Positions 33,810 through 39,494 of a stretch of 54,574 bases of DNA are shown here, piece after piece (within the stretch, counting starts at the first letter, position 1; the number at the start of each line of letters is the position of its first letter). The stretch is from contig JAAYYI010000074.1 of assembly GCA_012515445.1 (NCBI GenBank), forward strand, positions 1 through 54,574, written 5' to 3'. The notes under the pieces were generated by a model. It ran no database searches, had not been told where the DNA came from, and was given only the letters and a program-made list of their open reading frames with translations. The stretch comes from Candidatus Bathyarchaeota archaeon (GTDB lineage Archaea; Thermoproteota; Bathyarchaeia; Bathyarchaeales; Bathycorpusculaceae). Position numbers and translations under genes: made by a program.

Positions 33810-34040
33810 TTATTCTTCTCCGGTTACTACTTTTTTAACGACCGGATCCTCAATTTCGTCAGCTTTAAGCTCTTTTGTGCTGATGATTTTAATGTGGCAA
33901 CGGCGGACACGGTGTCTGCTACCTATGTCAGCGTATATTTTCTCAACAGCATGCTCGCTTTTGTCTGCTATGACTTCGCGTGCGAATGGAGTCTTAAGTT
34001 CTGGCTTGTTGATTTCACCGGTTACTTTGAAAGCTTTCAT
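33810..34040 (-). CDS. rpl18a: Ribosomal protein LX (L18a/L20a family)
   Basis: A 76-residue LX protein. It opens KAFKVTGEINKP and has IGSRHRVRRCHIKI at 40-53, characteristic of the archaeal LX/L18a protein of the large subunit. Its end lies one base from pfdA and its start overlaps the aIF6 stop by four bases. Confidence 0.95.
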   Translation of the reverse strand: MKAFKVTGEINKPELKTPFAREVIADKSEHAVEKIYADIGSRHRVRRCHIKIISTKELKADEIEDPVVKKVVTGEE

Positions 34041-34720
34041 GATTTCTCTTCCTGCACAACATCCAGTGCATTCCCAATTATAAACATCTCGGGTCCAGTT
34101 GTCATAGAACCAGCTACTGCTGCTTGACTATTAGCGATTAAGCCTGTACCAACGTATGGGATACCGCAGTTTATGGTGCCGACTTCCACTGGGACTTTTA
34201 GTGCGCTCTCTAAGATTTTCTTTTCTTCTTCTTTAAGCATCGGATGGGCTAAAACGCCCTTGTTGGTTACACATGCAAGTGAACCGACGTATGGCAACGC
34301 GGCGATTTCAGTTGGCACCACTTCGACGCCCAGCGTGTCTGAGATAATTTTTAAATCGTTGGGTTTGAAGCGGGGATCAACCGCTGCGCCTTTATCGTTG
34401 CAAAGGACTAGGTTGCCGTATGCAGTTTTCTTGGTTTCCATAACTGTAATGTTGCCCTTGTAGACGGCTTTTATACGCTCTAACTCTTCGGCGCGTACAG
34501 AGTGAGGGAGTAGCATGCCGTTGGAGTTGGCGCATACAAACGAACCGACTAGGACTGAACCTGCGACTGATGTGTAGATTAAGTCCGCTTTGAGCCAGGT
34601 TGCGAATTCCTGTGCTTTATCCTGCGGAACCATGACTGGAATAACCACGACGTTCTCAGTCGCAATTGAGTAGACGCCGATGCTTGGGCTTCCAACAATG
34701 CTGGATAAGTAAACAGTCAA
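34037..34720 (-). CDS. eif6: Translation initiation factor aIF6
   Basis: A 227-residue pentein-fold protein of five repeats. Examples are VGSFVCANSNGMLLP, YGNLVLCNDKGAAV and VGSLACVTNKGVLAHP, each a short beta-beta-alpha unit with a VG-[A/T]-N pattern. It binds the large ribosomal subunit and prevents premature joining. First of the four-gene operon ending in ftsY. Confidence 0.96.
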   Translation of the reverse strand: MTVYLSSIVGSPSIGVYSIATENVVVIPVMVPQDKAQEFATWLKADLIYTSVAGSVLVGSFVCANSNGMLLPHSVRAEELERIKAVYKGNITVMETKKTAYGNLVLCNDKGAAVDPRFKPNDLKIISDTLGVEVVPTEIAALPYVGSLACVTNKGVLAHPMLKEEEKKILESALKVPVEVGTINCGIPYVGTGLIANSQAAVAGSMTTGPEMFIIGNALDVVQEEKS

Positions 34721-34814
34721 AATTGATTTCTCCTGAAACGATTATCGATTAGCGGAAATTGTCATGCAATCACCCTTTTTTAGATTGCGGTGAAGACAAA
34801 AGAATGAAATGTGG

Positions 34815-36077
34815 TTAACCAGTTTTTCGCATATCCAACGGAACCTTTACGATAAATGAGGTGCCGTCTCCCGGTTGACTTTCAAAAGTCGCAGTGCCTT
34901 TTAGGGCTTCTGTTAGACGTTTAACTACGGCTAATCCGAGTCCTTGGCCTTTGGCTTTTGTAGTGAATAGCGGCTGGAAAATATTTGGTTTGACATCGTC
35001 AGGTATGCCTGGACCTGTGTCTTTTACTGCTATTGATACATGTTCATCGGTGTAATCTGTTCGTATCGTTAATTTTCCCCCGTTTGGCATAGCCTGCAAA
35101 GCGTTGGATACAAGGTTAACAAGGATACGTTTGAGGTACAATGGATCACTATAGATTTTTATTTTATCCCTTAAATCCAAGTTAACGGCAGTGGATTGGG
35201 GGATTACTATACTTAAAAGCGATTCTTTGATGGTTGAAGCCAACTCAATGGGTTGCGGTTTAGGCGTTAATGGTTTAGTGAAGTCCTGTAGATCAGCTAC
35301 GATTTTGTTAATGTAGAAAGTCTGTTCCTCAATCATCTGTACAGAGTCTTTCAAAGCATTCCTTGCTGCACCCTCAGGTAACCCTTCAAGTTCCTCACGT
35401 GCCAGATACAATTCGCTTACTATGGACTGCAGCGGATTGCGTATATCATGGCCTACCATGCTTGCGGTTTGTCCTATAGCTGCAAGTCGTTCTTTGTCTT
35501 TAAGCTGGTTTGTTCGTTCCCGGACTGTGGCTTCTAAGTCCTGAGTGTACTGTTTAAGATCATCTTCCATATGTAAAGAGAGGTCCGTAACGACAATGAA
35601 TACTGTAGTTTTTTCTTCAGTCCTTAAAGAGCTGGCTGATACAAACGCGGGTACAATCTTGTTCGCTTTTGCTTTGAAAGTTATCTCTTTGGAAATTGAG
35701 CGTTTGCCTTGGCGGCACGCTTCGATAAGCTGCCTGAAGTTCCCAAGATGCTCAGGAGCAACTACTTCTTCAATGTTGCTACCCATGAGTCTGTCCAGAG
35801 GAACCTGCACCATCTGCGCGAAGCCTTTATTGCAGTAAAGAACAGTGTTGTCCTCACATAACATCACTGCACCTTCACGCATTTCCTCAATTAATAAACG
35901 GTAAGGGGTTTCTGCCCCACTCAATGTATAGGTACGTGGACCTTCCGGCGTGTTAATGACTAAAGCATCAACTTCGCCCTGCCGTATTGCCCTTAAGGTC
36001 TCTTGGGCTTCGATTAGCTGGTCTCGTAGGGCTTGGTTTTCTGATAGCAAAGATTCTTTTTTGTTTTCAGTTATCAT
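34815..36077 (-). CDS. PAS-domain sensor histidine kinase of the Kai cassette
   Basis: A 420-residue soluble kinase. Residues 25-50 form the lead helix with RAIRQGEVDALV; a PAS domain spans about 60-165. HisKA carries the phospho-acceptor H210 in GHDIRNPLQ; the HATPase domain has N325 (NLVSNALQAM), DTGPGIP at 353-359 and FTTKAKGQGLGLA. It has no membrane segments and no KaiB-like sensor domain. Its ATG lies 11 bases inside the upstream kaiB, so the two are coupled. It could act like the output kinases SasA or CikA of cyanobacterial clocks; no response regulator is in view. Confidence 0.9.
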   Translation of the reverse strand: MITENKKESLLSENQALRDQLIEAQETLRAIRQGEVDALVINTPEGPRTYTLSGAETPYRLLIEEMREGAVMLCEDNTVLYCNKGFAQMVQVPLDRLMGSNIEEVVAPEHLGNFRQLIEACRQGKRSISKEITFKAKANKIVPAFVSASSLRTEEKTTVFIVVTDLSLHMEDDLKQYTQDLEATVRERTNQLKDKERLAAIGQTASMVGHDIRNPLQSIVSELYLAREELEGLPEGAARNALKDSVQMIEEQTFYINKIVADLQDFTKPLTPKPQPIELASTIKESLLSIVIPQSTAVNLDLRDKIKIYSDPLYLKRILVNLVSNALQAMPNGGKLTIRTDYTDEHVSIAVKDTGPGIPDDVKPNIFQPLFTTKAKGQGLGLAVVKRLTEALKGTATFESQPGDGTSFIVKVPLDMRKTG

Positions 36078-36453
36078 TGATTTTACGGCTCACCCTTTCG
36101 CTTTCTTTCTTAGGGACAATATCGAGTCCCACGAGGATGCGGTCTTCGTTTGACATATCACCGATGAACTTTCGAAGCGGCAGTGGCAGCTTTTTGATGA
36201 GGGTTGGGGCAGCGATTAACTGTTCGGTTTTTGCATAATCAGGTTGCTGGTAGATGTCAATAACTTCCAGTTCGCATCTGCCCTTCAAGTGCTCGTTGCA
36301 GATTTTTTTGACGTTATCTATGGCACGGAGTGACTTTGGAGTCATGCCAGTAACGTACAAACGGAGAATGTAGCGTTCTTGGTTTTCATCTTTTAGAGCT
36401 TTTTCGAATTCAGCGGTTACATCAGCAGGATCTTTTTTCGGCATTATCGGCAA
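36067..36453 (-). CDS. kaiB: KaiB-like protein 1
   Basis: A 128-residue KaiB-family protein. The core from about residue 27 reads YILRLYVTGMTPKSLRAI, then CELEVIDIYQQPDYAKTEQLIAAPTLIKKLPLPLRKFIGDMSN, matching KaiB in order (LYV-G-TP-S, IDI, ATPTL, P-P-RRIIGD). An N-terminal extension of about 25 charged residues precedes the core. It is next to the histidine kinase. KaiB is a thioredoxin-like protein that changes fold to bind KaiC; whether this one does is not visible in the sequence. Confidence 0.88.
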   Translation of the reverse strand: MPIMPKKDPADVTAEFEKALKDENQERYILRLYVTGMTPKSLRAIDNVKKICNEHLKGRCELEVIDIYQQPDYAKTEQLIAAPTLIKKLPLPLRKFIGDMSNEDRILVGLDIVPKKESERVSRKINDN

Positions 36454-36466
36454 ACATCCTTGGGAT

Positions 36467-36784
36467 CTAAATATTCTCCATTTGATGAGGAAGGATATCT
36501 AAGCCTACTAGAACCTTCTCTGTGTTTGAAAGGTCCCCGATTATTCTTCTAATCGGTTCAGGTAGCTTACGTACTAAAGTAGGTATAGCAAGAATTTGGT
36601 CTCCTGCAGCTAATCTGGGATTTTTTATTAAATCAATTACTTCTATGTGGCATTTGCCCTTCAGGTGCTCGTCACATAGTTTTTTTAGGTTCGAGAAGGC
36701 TGCTTGAGACTTCGGCGTTTGACCAGCGACGTAAAGGCGTAGATTCCAAAAATCACCTTCGCTCTGGGCATTTTGAGTGCTCAT
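36467..36784 (-). CDS. kaiB: KaiB-like protein 2
   Basis: A 105-residue protein and the most canonical of the three: [52 protein letters not shown] and [13 protein letters not shown] chose the ATG at 36784, preceded by GGTGA, over an upstream start at 36883 that would extend into kaiC and add 33 residues unlike KaiB. The kaiC stop lies 22 bases upstream. Confidence 0.9.
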
Positions 36785-36806
36785 AAAATCACCATAAATA
36801 TCCGTC

Positions 36807-38516
36807 CTATCCTTTAATTGTTTTTTCCTGGGAACCTCTTGCCTTAGACATTCTGGCGCGATTTTGAGATAAGATTGATTCACGCTCTTTTGATTGCAAA
36901 ATTAGCTGTTTGATTTCTTCAGCTTTAGCTTCATACTCAGCAGTTATCGCTGCCACCTGCGCCTCCATGATCTTCCGTCTACGATCCAAATCACGGGAAA
37001 ACCGTTCAATTTCTTCCCGCCGAAGGGTTTTTTCCGCTTGCTCCTTCTCTTCTTGAGCAGCACGCGCCGAACCAGTGAGTACACCAGAAGGTCCTGCATA
37101 AACGTCTATGATGTCAACACCTTTGTTAGTCAGCAAGAATTCACGAATCTGGTTAGAGTGCGGCATGCCTCTCGATTTAAGAACATAAATACCTCTGTTA
37201 CGTTCACCAGCTATTTCTATATCTCTAACCAGCAACCAAGTATCCATAACTGAGGAAACTTCAGTCTCTGTGGCCTCCAATCGTTCATGAGTGAGGTTTG
37301 TAAATACAGCCGTGATCTGCTTGCTTTTCAGATAATCGATTAACCGCGTAAGCATAGACCGGACATCAGATGACTCGCCCACATTAATCAAGTTACTAAT
37401 AGGGTCGACAATAACAGCGTTCGGCTTAAAATCATCGATTTGACGCTGCATAGTTACCAGATGAGTTTCTAAACCATATAGTGACGCTCTAGCAGAGTGA
37501 ATTTTAAGGCGTCCCTTGTCAAGCCATTGCTGCAAATTTAATCCTACCGAACTCATGTTTCTAACTATCTGATCAGGCGACTCTTCAAACGCGAAGTATA
37601 GAACGCGTTCGCCTCTTCGACAAGTGGCATCAGCAAAGTGAGCGGCAATTGTGCTTTTCCCAGTGCCCGCACTTCCAGTAACTAAGATGCTGCTGCCACG
37701 GTAGAAGCCTTTGCCGCCAAGCATCATGTCGAGTCTTGGTATACCGCTTGATATACGTTCGTTTGATACCTTATAGTCGAGTGCTAAGGATGTGATGGGC
37801 ATTATGGAGATACCGTGCTCGTCAATTAGGAAGGGATACTCGTTGGTGCCATGCCTTGAGCCACGATACTTTACTATTCTCAGGCGCCTAGTAGAAATCT
37901 GGCCTGTGACGCGGTTATCGAGTAAAATAACGCAGTCTGAAACATATTCTTCTAAACCGTAGCGAGTTAACTCGTTGGATCCCCGCTCGGCTGTTATGAT
38001 TGCTGTTACACCTTTATCTTTTAACCAACGGAATAATCTGCGAAGTTCAGCGCGCAATATCGCCTGATTCTTCAAACCCGCAAAAAGCGACTCAATCGTA
38101 TCCAAAACAACCCGCTTGGCCCCAATTGAGTCAATTGCGTAACCTATACGGATGAATAAACCTTCAAGGTCATATTCGCCTGTTTCTTCAATTTCACTTC
38201 TTTCAACGCGTACAAAGTCAATAATTAACTTTTTTTCTTTAATCAGTTCTTCAATTTCAAATCCAAGTGAAGCAACGTTTTTCGCTAGCTCATCAGATGT
38301 CTCCTCAAAAGCCATGAAAACGCCTGACTCACCGAATTCTATGGCGCCTCTGACTAGAAATTCCATGGACATCAGGGTTTTGCCGCTTCCTGCGCCGCCA
38401 GCTATTAGGGTTGAGCGTCCTTTTGGTAGTCCGCCGAAGGTTATTTCGTCTAATCCTCTGATTCCTGTTGGGGCTTTTGGTAATTCCTCTGTGGATTTTA
38501 TGGTCGTATGCTGCAT
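36807..38516 (-). CDS. kaiC: KaiC-family double-domain ATPase
   Basis: A 569-residue KaiC. CI has GGAGSGKT (40-47) and the catalytic pair E70/E71; CII has [10 protein letters not shown] (279-288) and E310/E311. In CII the sequence [12 protein letters not shown] places T415, S420 and S421 where cyanobacterial KaiC has T426, S431 and T432, its phosphosites. [13 protein letters not shown] and [12 protein letters not shown] follow as in KaiC. The C-terminus (about 485-569) is a charged coiled coil in place of the short clock tail. Many archaeal KaiC-like proteins have one or two domains without a known rhythm; the surrounding kaiB genes support a Kai-type circuit here. Confidence 0.93.
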
Positions 38517-38569
38517 TTAGTGTTCAACTCCAAGATAAAAAACTGAATAGAAAGCTCGCCCATCGACAT

Positions 38570-38848
38570 CTACTTCAATCCTAGTTTTAATATAATACTT
38601 TCGGTGTTTGACAGATCGCCTATTAAGGTACGTTCAGGCAATGGACGCCTCAGTATTGTTGTGGGGTTAGCGGTTATTTGGTTATCTGAGGCTGCTTTTG
38701 GGTTTAAAATTAAATCGTAGACTGTTATCATGCATTCGCCATTAAGGTGCTCTTTGCAGAATTTTTTCAGGTTGGCGTATGCAAAACGGGCTTTTAGCGT
38801 TCCGTCGACAATATAGAGGTCAAACTCCCATGTAGAAGACTGAGCCAA
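38570..38848 (-). CDS. KaiB-like protein 3 (divergent)
   Basis: A 92-residue KaiB-family protein starting at TTG (38848) after AAGGA. The pattern FDLYIVDGTLKARFAYANLK, MITVYDLILNPKAASDNQI, ANPTTILRRPLPERTLIGD and LSNTESII keeps the KaiB core, but GxTP and the ATPTL site are changed. It is the first gene of the cassette, upstream of kaiC. It may have a distinct partner or be a non-switching KaiB. Confidence 0.82.
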   Translation of the reverse strand: MAQSSTWEFDLYIVDGTLKARFAYANLKKFCKEHLNGECMITVYDLILNPKAASDNQITANPTTILRRPLPERTLIGDLSNTESIILKLGLK

Positions 38849-38934
38849 ACGTGTGTTTCCTTCTTATTGGTAGTGAACCCTAAAGACAGATAAAACTTTG
38901 CACAAAATAACTAAGGCGTCGGTGCTGGGTCAAC

Positions 38935-38945
38935 TTATAAAAAGT
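38935..38945 (-). promoter_or_regulatory. TATA box for the kai cassette
   Basis: CTTTTTATAA on the minus strand lies about 90 bases upstream of the first KaiB start, leaving room for a leader of about 60 bases. It separates the cassette from the ribosomal protein gene upstream. Confidence 0.45.
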
Positions 38946-39044
38946 CTACATAGTATTTTGGTTATTACTAAAAGTTAACGTTCAATCGTTTCTAAGTTAT
39001 ATTAGAAAATGAAATGAAAATGTTGAAATGGGAAAAGATTGGTT

Positions 39045-39494
39045 TTACTGGTTTTCTGCCAGATAAACAGTGACGTTGCCGTCTTTGTCTTTGGTTACGC
39101 GTGTCTTAATCTTGCGTGGTGGCTTCTCAATTCCGCGTCCCCAGATCTTCTCATTAATTTCTTGGCTAATGATCAACTGTGGAAGCTCTTCTTCCTCTTC
39201 TTCTTCGCTGACCTTCATGCTCATTTTCATGTGTTTAACGATGAAGATTTTGACTAACTGCATGGCGCGTGGAGCGCGTTTCTTTGGTGGGCGAATCAAG
39301 GCTTTCTGGAGTGGTATGGTGTAGAATCTTTCTTCGACGAATTCTTCGGTTTTCTTTTTCTGTTTTGCTTTGGCTTCTTCGACTGGTGCTTCTGCTGGTG
39401 TTGCTTCTGCGGTTTGTGGCTGTTCTAGTTCTTGTGGTGCTTGTGCTAGTTGGGTTTCTTCTTCCTTTGTTAGTTGTTTGGTTTCTTGTGACAT
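39045..39494 (-). CDS. rpl31e: Ribosomal protein L31e with acidic N-terminal extension
   Basis: A 149-residue protein. Residues 55-149 are L31e, starting ERFYTIPLQKA and ending VYLAENQ. The first 50 residues form an Ala/Glu/Gln/Pro-rich extension not found in most L31e. The core part is basic (KKRAPRAMQLVKIFIVKHMK). It closes the S19e-PDCD5-L39e-L31e block. Confidence 0.94.
   Translation of the reverse strand: MSQETKQLTKEEETQLAQAPQELEQPQTAEATPAEAPVEEAKAKQKKKTEEFVEERFYTIPLQKALIRPPKKRAPRAMQLVKIFIVKHMKMSMKVSEEEEEEELPQLIISQEINEKIWGRGIEKPPRKIKTRVTKDKDGNVTVYLAENQ

Follow-up and report, generated by a model that had tools for sequence, protein, structure and literature searches.

The genes described here lie on a contig from a Candidatus Bathyarchaeota archaeon (GenBank assembly GCA_012515445.1, contig JAAYYI010000074.1, positions 1 to 54,574), and this whole 54,574-nucleotide (nt) stretch is called the window. 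A check of its open reading frames (ORFs) verified five genes, all on the minus strand and all within positions 34,815 to 38,848, which together form a Kai cassette. In transcription order they are kaiB1, kaiC, kaiB-alpha, kaiB-beta, and the gene of a PAS histidine kinase (HK), the names "alpha" and "beta" being coined in this analysis (Table 1). The intergenic gaps are 53, 22, and 22 nt, after which kaiB-beta and the kinase gene overlap by 11 nt; an initial annotation, made from the sequence alone, had already seen five genes on one strand with the last two overlapping. Its descriptions of the three KaiBs (one with an N-terminal extension, one canonical, one divergent) hold when the genes are taken in rising coordinate order, starting at 36,067, 36,467, and 38,570, but in the gene order that it gave, the first and third are swapped. 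For kaiB-alpha the ATG form is given; a longer form starting at GTG would run into kaiC.

All three KaiBs pass the Pfam PF07689 cut-off of 27 bits (KaiB-alpha 96.7, KaiB-beta 86.3, KaiB1 47.3) with E-values of 1.7e-12 or better, far past chance, and the 2.44-Mb assembly, with a completeness rating of 92%, has no PF07689 match besides these. Against the NCBIfam KaiB equivalogs they score 102.1, 94.9, and 39.5 (NF006798, cut-off 110) and 94.7, 88.5, and 37.0 (TIGR02654, cut-off 145.3). Because all of these scores are under the curated cut-offs, the three are classed by sequence as KaiB-family proteins and not as equivalogs of either type.

Table 1. Cassette genes, candidate promoter element, and bordering genes, in window coordinates.
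Feature	Coordinates	Strand	Description
kaiB1	38570..38848	-	Diverged extra KaiB, 92 amino acids, TTG start; opens the cassette, ahead of kaiC
kaiC	36807..38516	-	569 amino acids; KaiC2 type; putative double ATPase/autokinase that ends in a coiled-coil tail
kaiB-alpha	36467..36784	-	Canonical KaiB, 105 amino acids counted from ATG
kaiB-beta	36067..36444	-	Second KaiB paralogue type, 125 amino acids, 27 residues ahead of the Pfam match
PAS histidine kinase	34815..36077	-	420 amino acids; PAS, HisKA, HATPase_c; conserved N-terminal leader
TATA-like TTTTTATAAG	38934..38943	-	Some 90 nt ahead of kaiB1; candidate promoter for the whole cassette; read from the upstream sequence
aIF6 gene	34037..34720	-	Downstream border of the insertion; PF01912, E 1.5e-64; synteny
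L31e ribosomal protein gene	39045..39494	-	Upstream border of the insertion; PF01198, E 1.5e-9; synteny

A conserved module with two KaiB types

One genome per species, 84,980 species in all, was scanned with the KaiC protein. At least 499 relatives were confirmed and the best 80 kept, and together with two loci from the host lineage (L013 from genome G125 and L014 from genome G084) and the window these make 83 mapped loci; the locus, tree, and alignment counts given below describe these near relatives of the window KaiC. The order is kaiC-kaiB-kaiB-HK in 66 of them, HK being an ORF that matches the first 165 residues of the window kinase. The others are kaiC-kaiB-HK (seven loci), kaiC-kaiB-kaiB (four), kaiC-kaiB (one), kaiC-kaiB-kaiB-HK-HK (one), and three single loci with extra KaiBs: kaiC-kaiB-kaiB-HK-kaiB (L060), kaiC-kaiB-kaiB-kaiB-HK (L046), and kaiC-kaiB-kaiB-kaiB-kaiB-HK (L050). 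The window order, kaiB-kaiC-kaiB-kaiB-HK, is unique in the set. None of the other 82 loci has a KaiB upstream of kaiC, with the limit that such a gene would hardly be visible in L089 and L057 (less than 330 nt before the KaiC match) or in L071 (365 nt). A kinase of the window type is absent from five loci: in L106, L091, and L108 the sequence stops 216, 327, and 1 nt past the last KaiB, and in L062 and L057 it goes on and a kinase is present, matching the window kinase in its catalytic part only. The four-gene kaiC-kaiB-kaiB-HK module is thus the rule among near relatives and the gene before kaiC the exception. The window has the kaiC-kaiB-alpha-kaiB-beta-HK module in its gene order, its KaiB types, and its kinase N-terminal region, with one KaiB more. 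Nor is the cassette specifically archaeal, as it was first taken to be, for 71 of the 80 nearest KaiC relatives kept carry bacterial labels. The novelty first seen in three KaiBs around one KaiC does not lie in the count (L046 and L060 also have three, L050 four), but the KaiB upstream of kaiC stands.

The two KaiBs that follow kaiC are of two types tied to their positions. In a tree of 163 KaiB domains and two references, 71 of the 71 two-KaiB loci have their first KaiB on what is called the alpha side here and their second on the opposite, beta side, with a split support of 0.97; eight named phyla are represented among these loci. IQ-TREE repeated the split on 83 rows, 33 of them labeled first-position and 33 second-position; the split has 100/99 support and recurs in all of 200 bootstrap trees, where label shuffling leads one to expect a mean of 22.3 changes; this run had only 92 columns, and the program warned of an unsettled bootstrap. 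The window gene at 36,467 is of the alpha type and that at 36,067 of the beta type. The KaiBs of Rhodobacter sphaeroides and Thermosynechococcus elongatus are both on the alpha, or first-position, side.

KaiBC-kinase operons and kaiCBB are already published (papers are cited here from excerpts). An HK or GGDEF/EAL gene lies directly downstream in almost all non-cyanobacterial kaiC-kaiB clusters, and the HK N-terminal domain was put forward as interacting with KaiC, in the Ramlibacter tataouinensis genome paper, whose excerpted passages do not describe two KaiB types (PMC3164672). Thiodictyon syntrophicum Cad16 has a kaiC and two kaiB genes, published as kaiCBB; the neighbor named there is a diguanylate cyclase, and in those passages neither an analysis of two KaiB types nor a KaiB upstream of kaiC is mentioned (PMC5944118). 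Up to four KaiBs are found in some bacteria (PMC10808063). In the open-licence literature, as far as titles, abstract openings, and some passages show, neither a pair of KaiB types tied to position nor a KaiB ahead of a KaiC2-type kaiC is described. The position-tied KaiB-alpha/KaiB-beta pair and the extra KaiB before kaiC are what is new here.

That extra KaiB, KaiB1, departs from 16 of the 44 positions that are more than 90% conserved in 81 alpha KaiBs, the alpha median being one. Its end branch is the longest in the 165-sequence and 83-row KaiB trees (two plasmid KaiBs have longer ones once the plasmid set is added), and its nearest sequences are 47% identical. With KaiB1 the sole case at its position in 83 loci, these changes could mark a decaying duplicate without a role, the working module being the ordinary four-gene set. 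We regard this as possible, though on the unlikely side: the frame is complete and fully open, a TATA-like sequence lies ahead of it, IGDLSN is retained, as are the conserved residues C31 and G77, and the 47.3-bit PF07689 match speaks against decay too. Moreover, diverged extra alpha-side KaiBs exist elsewhere, the next most diverged being the third KaiB of L050 (12 of the 44 positions lost) and the first KaiB of L046 (8 lost). KaiB1 is a fast-changing extra copy and most likely acts as a modulator or competitor of KaiB-alpha, and extra KaiBs in general may evolve fast.

Some further observations concern KaiB1 and its possible kin. The strongly diverged alpha-side copies of the two extra-KaiB loci, one in each, lie at L046 7698-8015 and L050 7231-7785. 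An archaeal third-KaiB family uniting KaiB1 with the extra KaiB of the archaeon L046 was considered and dropped even though the two pair in two trees (0.61; 80/83): they have just three rare residues in common, other KaiBs share up to four with KaiB1, and constraining the pair gives no better tree. The second-best match of KaiB1 in the PDB is Legionella pneumophila KaiB 4kun (Lpp1115; E 4.2e-10), and a PLPER stretch is common to both, two other aligned KaiBs having Ile/Val for Glu. No relative of KaiB1 was matched in phage records, and of the 43 stretches that fitted the pattern when viral contigs were searched with a KaiB1-led alignment, none encodes one. Among 72,556 plasmid records, 16 match KaiB1, all with less than 60% identity (best 41.9%). 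Hymenobacter plasmids carry solo KaiB genes (L158 3483-3776; L159 3426-3761) that lack an annotated kaiC within 3.5 kb; one adjoins a response regulator, and both are outside the alpha clade.

KaiC and its histidine kinase

KaiC has two PF06745 stretches passing the Pfam cut-off and exceeds the cut-off of the NCBIfam KaiC equivalog NF006799 (757.8 bits against 408). Its closest solved structure, found with phmmer, is R. sphaeroides KaiC 8dba (E 8.6e-193; residues 13-562 of 569 aligned), and it is identical to the plasmid-copy KaiC of that species at 291 of 564 aligned residues (51.6%). The two intact Walker A sites and both Glu pairs noticed at the outset are present (K46 and K287; E71/E72 and E311/E312). 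Across the 83 aligned KaiCs, the equivalents of Synechococcus elongatus K52, E77, E78, K294, and E318 occur in all, and that of E319 in 82. Alignment to cyanobacterial KaiC, with an S. elongatus sequence as the ruler, puts the phosphosite positions in register with T426/S431/T432 as initially proposed; the residues are T416/S421/S422, one off from the T415/S420/S421 first given. S421 and S422 align with R. sphaeroides S413 and S414, the two-serine phosphosite of the KaiC2 type. The pattern is T..SS in 66 of the 83 KaiCs, S..SS in 12, T..SA in three, and A..AS and T..TS in one each. Of six more residues in the R. sphaeroides coupling network, five are identical in the window KaiC (W419, residue 421, Y436, L438, and R450) and V449 is replaced by Ile; residue 421 is Leu in both of the aligned sequences, though the text of PMC10076222 has Val421.

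After S. elongatus position 487 the KaiC tail has 93 residues, within a range of 87-111 across the 83 KaiCs. The initial annotation found this coiled coil unusual. It is not, because the alignment with 8dba extends through it, and by sequence the tail is the C-terminal coiled coil of the KaiC2 group. Such a coiled coil makes the R. sphaeroides KaiC a double hexamer, and a C-terminal extension of about 50 residues occurs predominantly in the two-serine KaiC2 subgroup (PMC10076222). By analogy with this relative, the window KaiC may form a dodecamer and autophosphorylate without KaiA.

The R. sphaeroides KaiBC-HK operon (PDB 8DBA, 8FWI, and 8FWJ; PMC10076222) is the known system most like the cassette. 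It likewise has a KaiC2 with a two-serine phosphosite and a coiled-coil tail, and its order on plasmid pB, kaiC-kaiB-histidine kinase, is like that of the window, with an alpha-side KaiB. However, it has a single KaiB beside kaiC, where the window has alpha, beta, and an upstream diverged KaiB, and its kinase is HWE-type by record annotation. With cyanobacterial KaiABC (Synechococcus/Thermosynechococcus) the window shares the KaiC fold, the Walker and Glu-pair residues, the phosphosite register, and the tree side of KaiB-alpha, on which T. elongatus KaiB lies. In contrast, the cassette is without KaiA or SasA, has an S-S instead of an S-T pair and a long coiled-coil tail, and its kinase has no KaiB-like domain.

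In the kinase, beyond the Pfam domains of Table 1, motifs that we take to be the H, N, G1, and G2 boxes are located at 209, 321, 353, and 377, with H210 as the H box histidine. Approximately residues 1-55 match no Pfam family and resemble the leaders of kinases that occupy this position in other loci; G34, D37, Y59, and R60 are invariant in an alignment of 27 sequences chosen from the mapped loci. An AlphaFold2 model of the kinase (mean predicted local distance difference test score, pLDDT, 86.5; predicted template modeling score 0.56) gives the leader a helix (4-32) and a hairpin (38-51), followed by PAS, with block pLDDT values of 56-68 over residues 31-60. When the whole model was compared with solved structures, LOV/FixL-type PAS kinases came out on top. 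An N-terminal KaiB-like domain, which defines the SasA type, was considered and rejected: the kinase has no KaiB match, its match to the SasA-type PRK09303 spans 164-414 only, and the modeled leader is a helix plus hairpin.

Proposed cycle and alternatives

With fair though not high confidence, we read the locus as an acquired KaiC2-type KaiBC-histidine kinase module that would act without KaiA as a phospho-timer or energy switch, with the kinase as its reader. Rather than a full daily clock, the cassette is probably a molecular timer or energy-state switch of a simple kind. In R. sphaeroides, KaiC autophosphorylates without KaiA, KaiB on the CI ring after ATP hydrolysis favors the dephosphorylated state, and the system behaves as an hourglass (PMC10076222). 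Because the coupling residues and the tail are conserved, the same cycle is likely in the window system. On this analogy, KaiC would assemble into a double hexamer through its tail and autophosphorylate to a level that tracks the ATP/ADP ratio, until a fold-switched KaiB bound the CI ring once ATP was hydrolyzed and reset it. Such a cycle would make the system a one-shot hourglass or energy-state switch and not a self-sustained clock. The resetting would likely fall to KaiB-alpha. KaiB-beta, the long-separated second type, probably has another fold preference or another partner, either the adjoining kinase or, in competition with alpha, KaiC. The kinase would read the KaiC/KaiB state and signal to one of the genome's receiver proteins encoded elsewhere, where nine receiver domains are found. 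The role of KaiB-beta, the input of the kinase, and the effect of KaiB1 are inferred. Of the initial proposal, the full KaiBC set with a kinase is borne out, and the hourglass-like role holds as the best analogy.

Several results weigh against this interpretation. KaiC is under the cut-off of the cyanobacterial-type TIGR02655 (382.3 bits against 546.25), and its branch in the KaiC tree (0.61) is longer than those of its three nearest archaeal kin (0.20-0.40). No receiver gene is present in the cassette. When divergent plasmid KaiBs are added to the tree, the alpha clade holds (97/92), and the other KaiBs form no tight clade. The tree place of KaiB1 is unsettled: grouping it with the window KaiB-alpha, the extra KaiB of L046, or beta gives approximately unbiased test p-values of 0.333, 0.374, and 0.259, none of them rejected, and the constraint neither supports nor rejects a recent duplication of the window KaiB-alpha. 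The AlphaFold2 model of KaiB1, for which the alignment held 46 sequences, part of the alpha set, is confident to about residue 58 only, and because pLDDT is below 50 from residue 59 it gives nothing on the fold state. Finally, the nine archaeal-labeled KaiC rows form one group separate from the 71 bacterial rows, so the tree points to no donor.

A serious rival, which we nevertheless consider rather unlikely, is that the module is a stress or energy-state signaling switch without a timing role: KaiC would sense ATP/ADP and the kinase would signal, the duration being irrelevant. Many module hosts are labeled Methanoperedens, Bacteroidota, or Thermodesulfobacteriota, groups with a non-phototrophic lifestyle, which suits this rival. 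An L. pneumophila KaiB that crystallized with the switched fold is said to have links to stress responses and not rhythms (PMC10808063), and 4kun, the second-best match of KaiB1, is presumably that protein. However, the window KaiC keeps the serine pair along with the coupling residues known from R. sphaeroides, which are associated there with an hourglass, and KaiB-alpha lies on the tree side of KaiBs with known KaiC-resetting function.

A bolder idea, which we consider rather unlikely, goes further. The alpha/beta pair would be a two-KaiB switch, an ancient division of labor that bacteria and archaea have inherited as one unit, to which the window would add a third, newly specialized KaiB tuning the delay. 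One KaiB might, for instance, be stored in the ground state and reset KaiC, and the other, fold-switched, would address the kinase. If the two KaiB types do differ in their jobs, the common non-cyanobacterial KaiBC systems would be two-input devices and not simplified clocks with a spare KaiB, and the system studied in R. sphaeroides, with its one KaiB, may have been reduced. The window is a testable case, with all KaiB types side by side in one archaeon, and its extra KaiB may show how a fold-switching protein gets retuned.

A self-sustained circadian clock in this archaeon is highly improbable despite the presence of both the KaiC phosphosite triad and KaiB: in a KaiA search that covered the cassette proteins, not the rest of the genome, none matches a KaiA model, the kinase is without a KaiB-like domain, and the closest studied KaiC2 system is called an hourglass and not a true oscillator (PMC10076222).

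Origin and probable insertion site

KaiB is rare around the host. It exceeds the cut-off in 3 of 256 genomes of the host class and in 3 of 398 sampled genomes of the phylum, and the two surveys joined give four genomes (G000, G084, G125, and G458). On the linkage, whose lack in related genomes would have refuted the initial annotation, the outcome is mixed: these four genomes all keep it, but 253 of the 256 class genomes are without a KaiB over the cut-off. In G458, the fourth phylum genome, the order is also kaiC-kaiB-kaiB-HK. Chance matches were set aside: E was 0.001 or less in 22 genomes of the phylum survey, but 19 of these were under the curated cut-off and were not counted as having KaiB, and in the class survey the candidate of G070 (L010), also under the cut-off, reads as a thioredoxin by the WCAPC in its translation, which we take to be the thioredoxin motif. 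A 2017 survey counted four archaeal genera with KaiB and always found KaiC2 in KaiB2-bearing archaeal genomes (PMC5520375); the window adds to this short list. The open-licence literature yielded nothing on KaiB with Methanoperedens. The KaiC tree joins the window to G125, G084, and archaeon Maxine3 (Shimodaira-Hasegawa-like approximate likelihood ratio test, SH-aLRT, 100), and this cluster is nested in a larger one that includes Methanoperedens-type archaea (95). The G458 KaiC sits elsewhere on a long branch.

The cassette sits between the genes for L31e and aIF6, which are 4,324 nt apart. The synteny was searched in 31 other genomes of the genus, two of which yielded no locus. Measured between alignment ends, the L31e-aIF6 distance is 61-1,156 nt in 22 of the 29 loci. 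In the remaining seven, viewed over longer stretches, it is 1,520, 1,560, and 1,639 nt in three and 8,300 nt in G085, and three have no L31e within about 9 kb. The junction (window 34,721-39,044) is an insertion-prone spot in the genus. Because KaiB is rare in the class and the cassette splits the usually close L31e and aIF6 genes, it was probably acquired; an ancestral cassette lost in most relatives is conceivable. Contamination was set aside as the source of the cassette, whose base composition differs only slightly from that of its flanks and whose neighbors on the contig are ribosomal and translation genes of archaeal type.

Some minor features of the site can be added. The guanine-cytosine content of the five cassette genes is 0.41-0.45 (third-position 0.36-0.49), slightly under that of five flanking genes, 0.45-0.50 (0.44-0.54). 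The element TTTTTATAAG is called TATA-like on the basis of what we take to be the archaeal TATA consensus. In G084, of the same genus, the Kai genes and aIF6 are on different contigs, and kaiC is separated from kaiB-alpha by an opposite-strand gene that encodes DNA methylase and restriction-endonuclease-like domains (L014 4070-4729). The G085 gap (L168 754-9054) holds archaellum genes, namely a flagellin (PF01917), a KaiC-family ATPase, and a type II/IV secretion ATPase.

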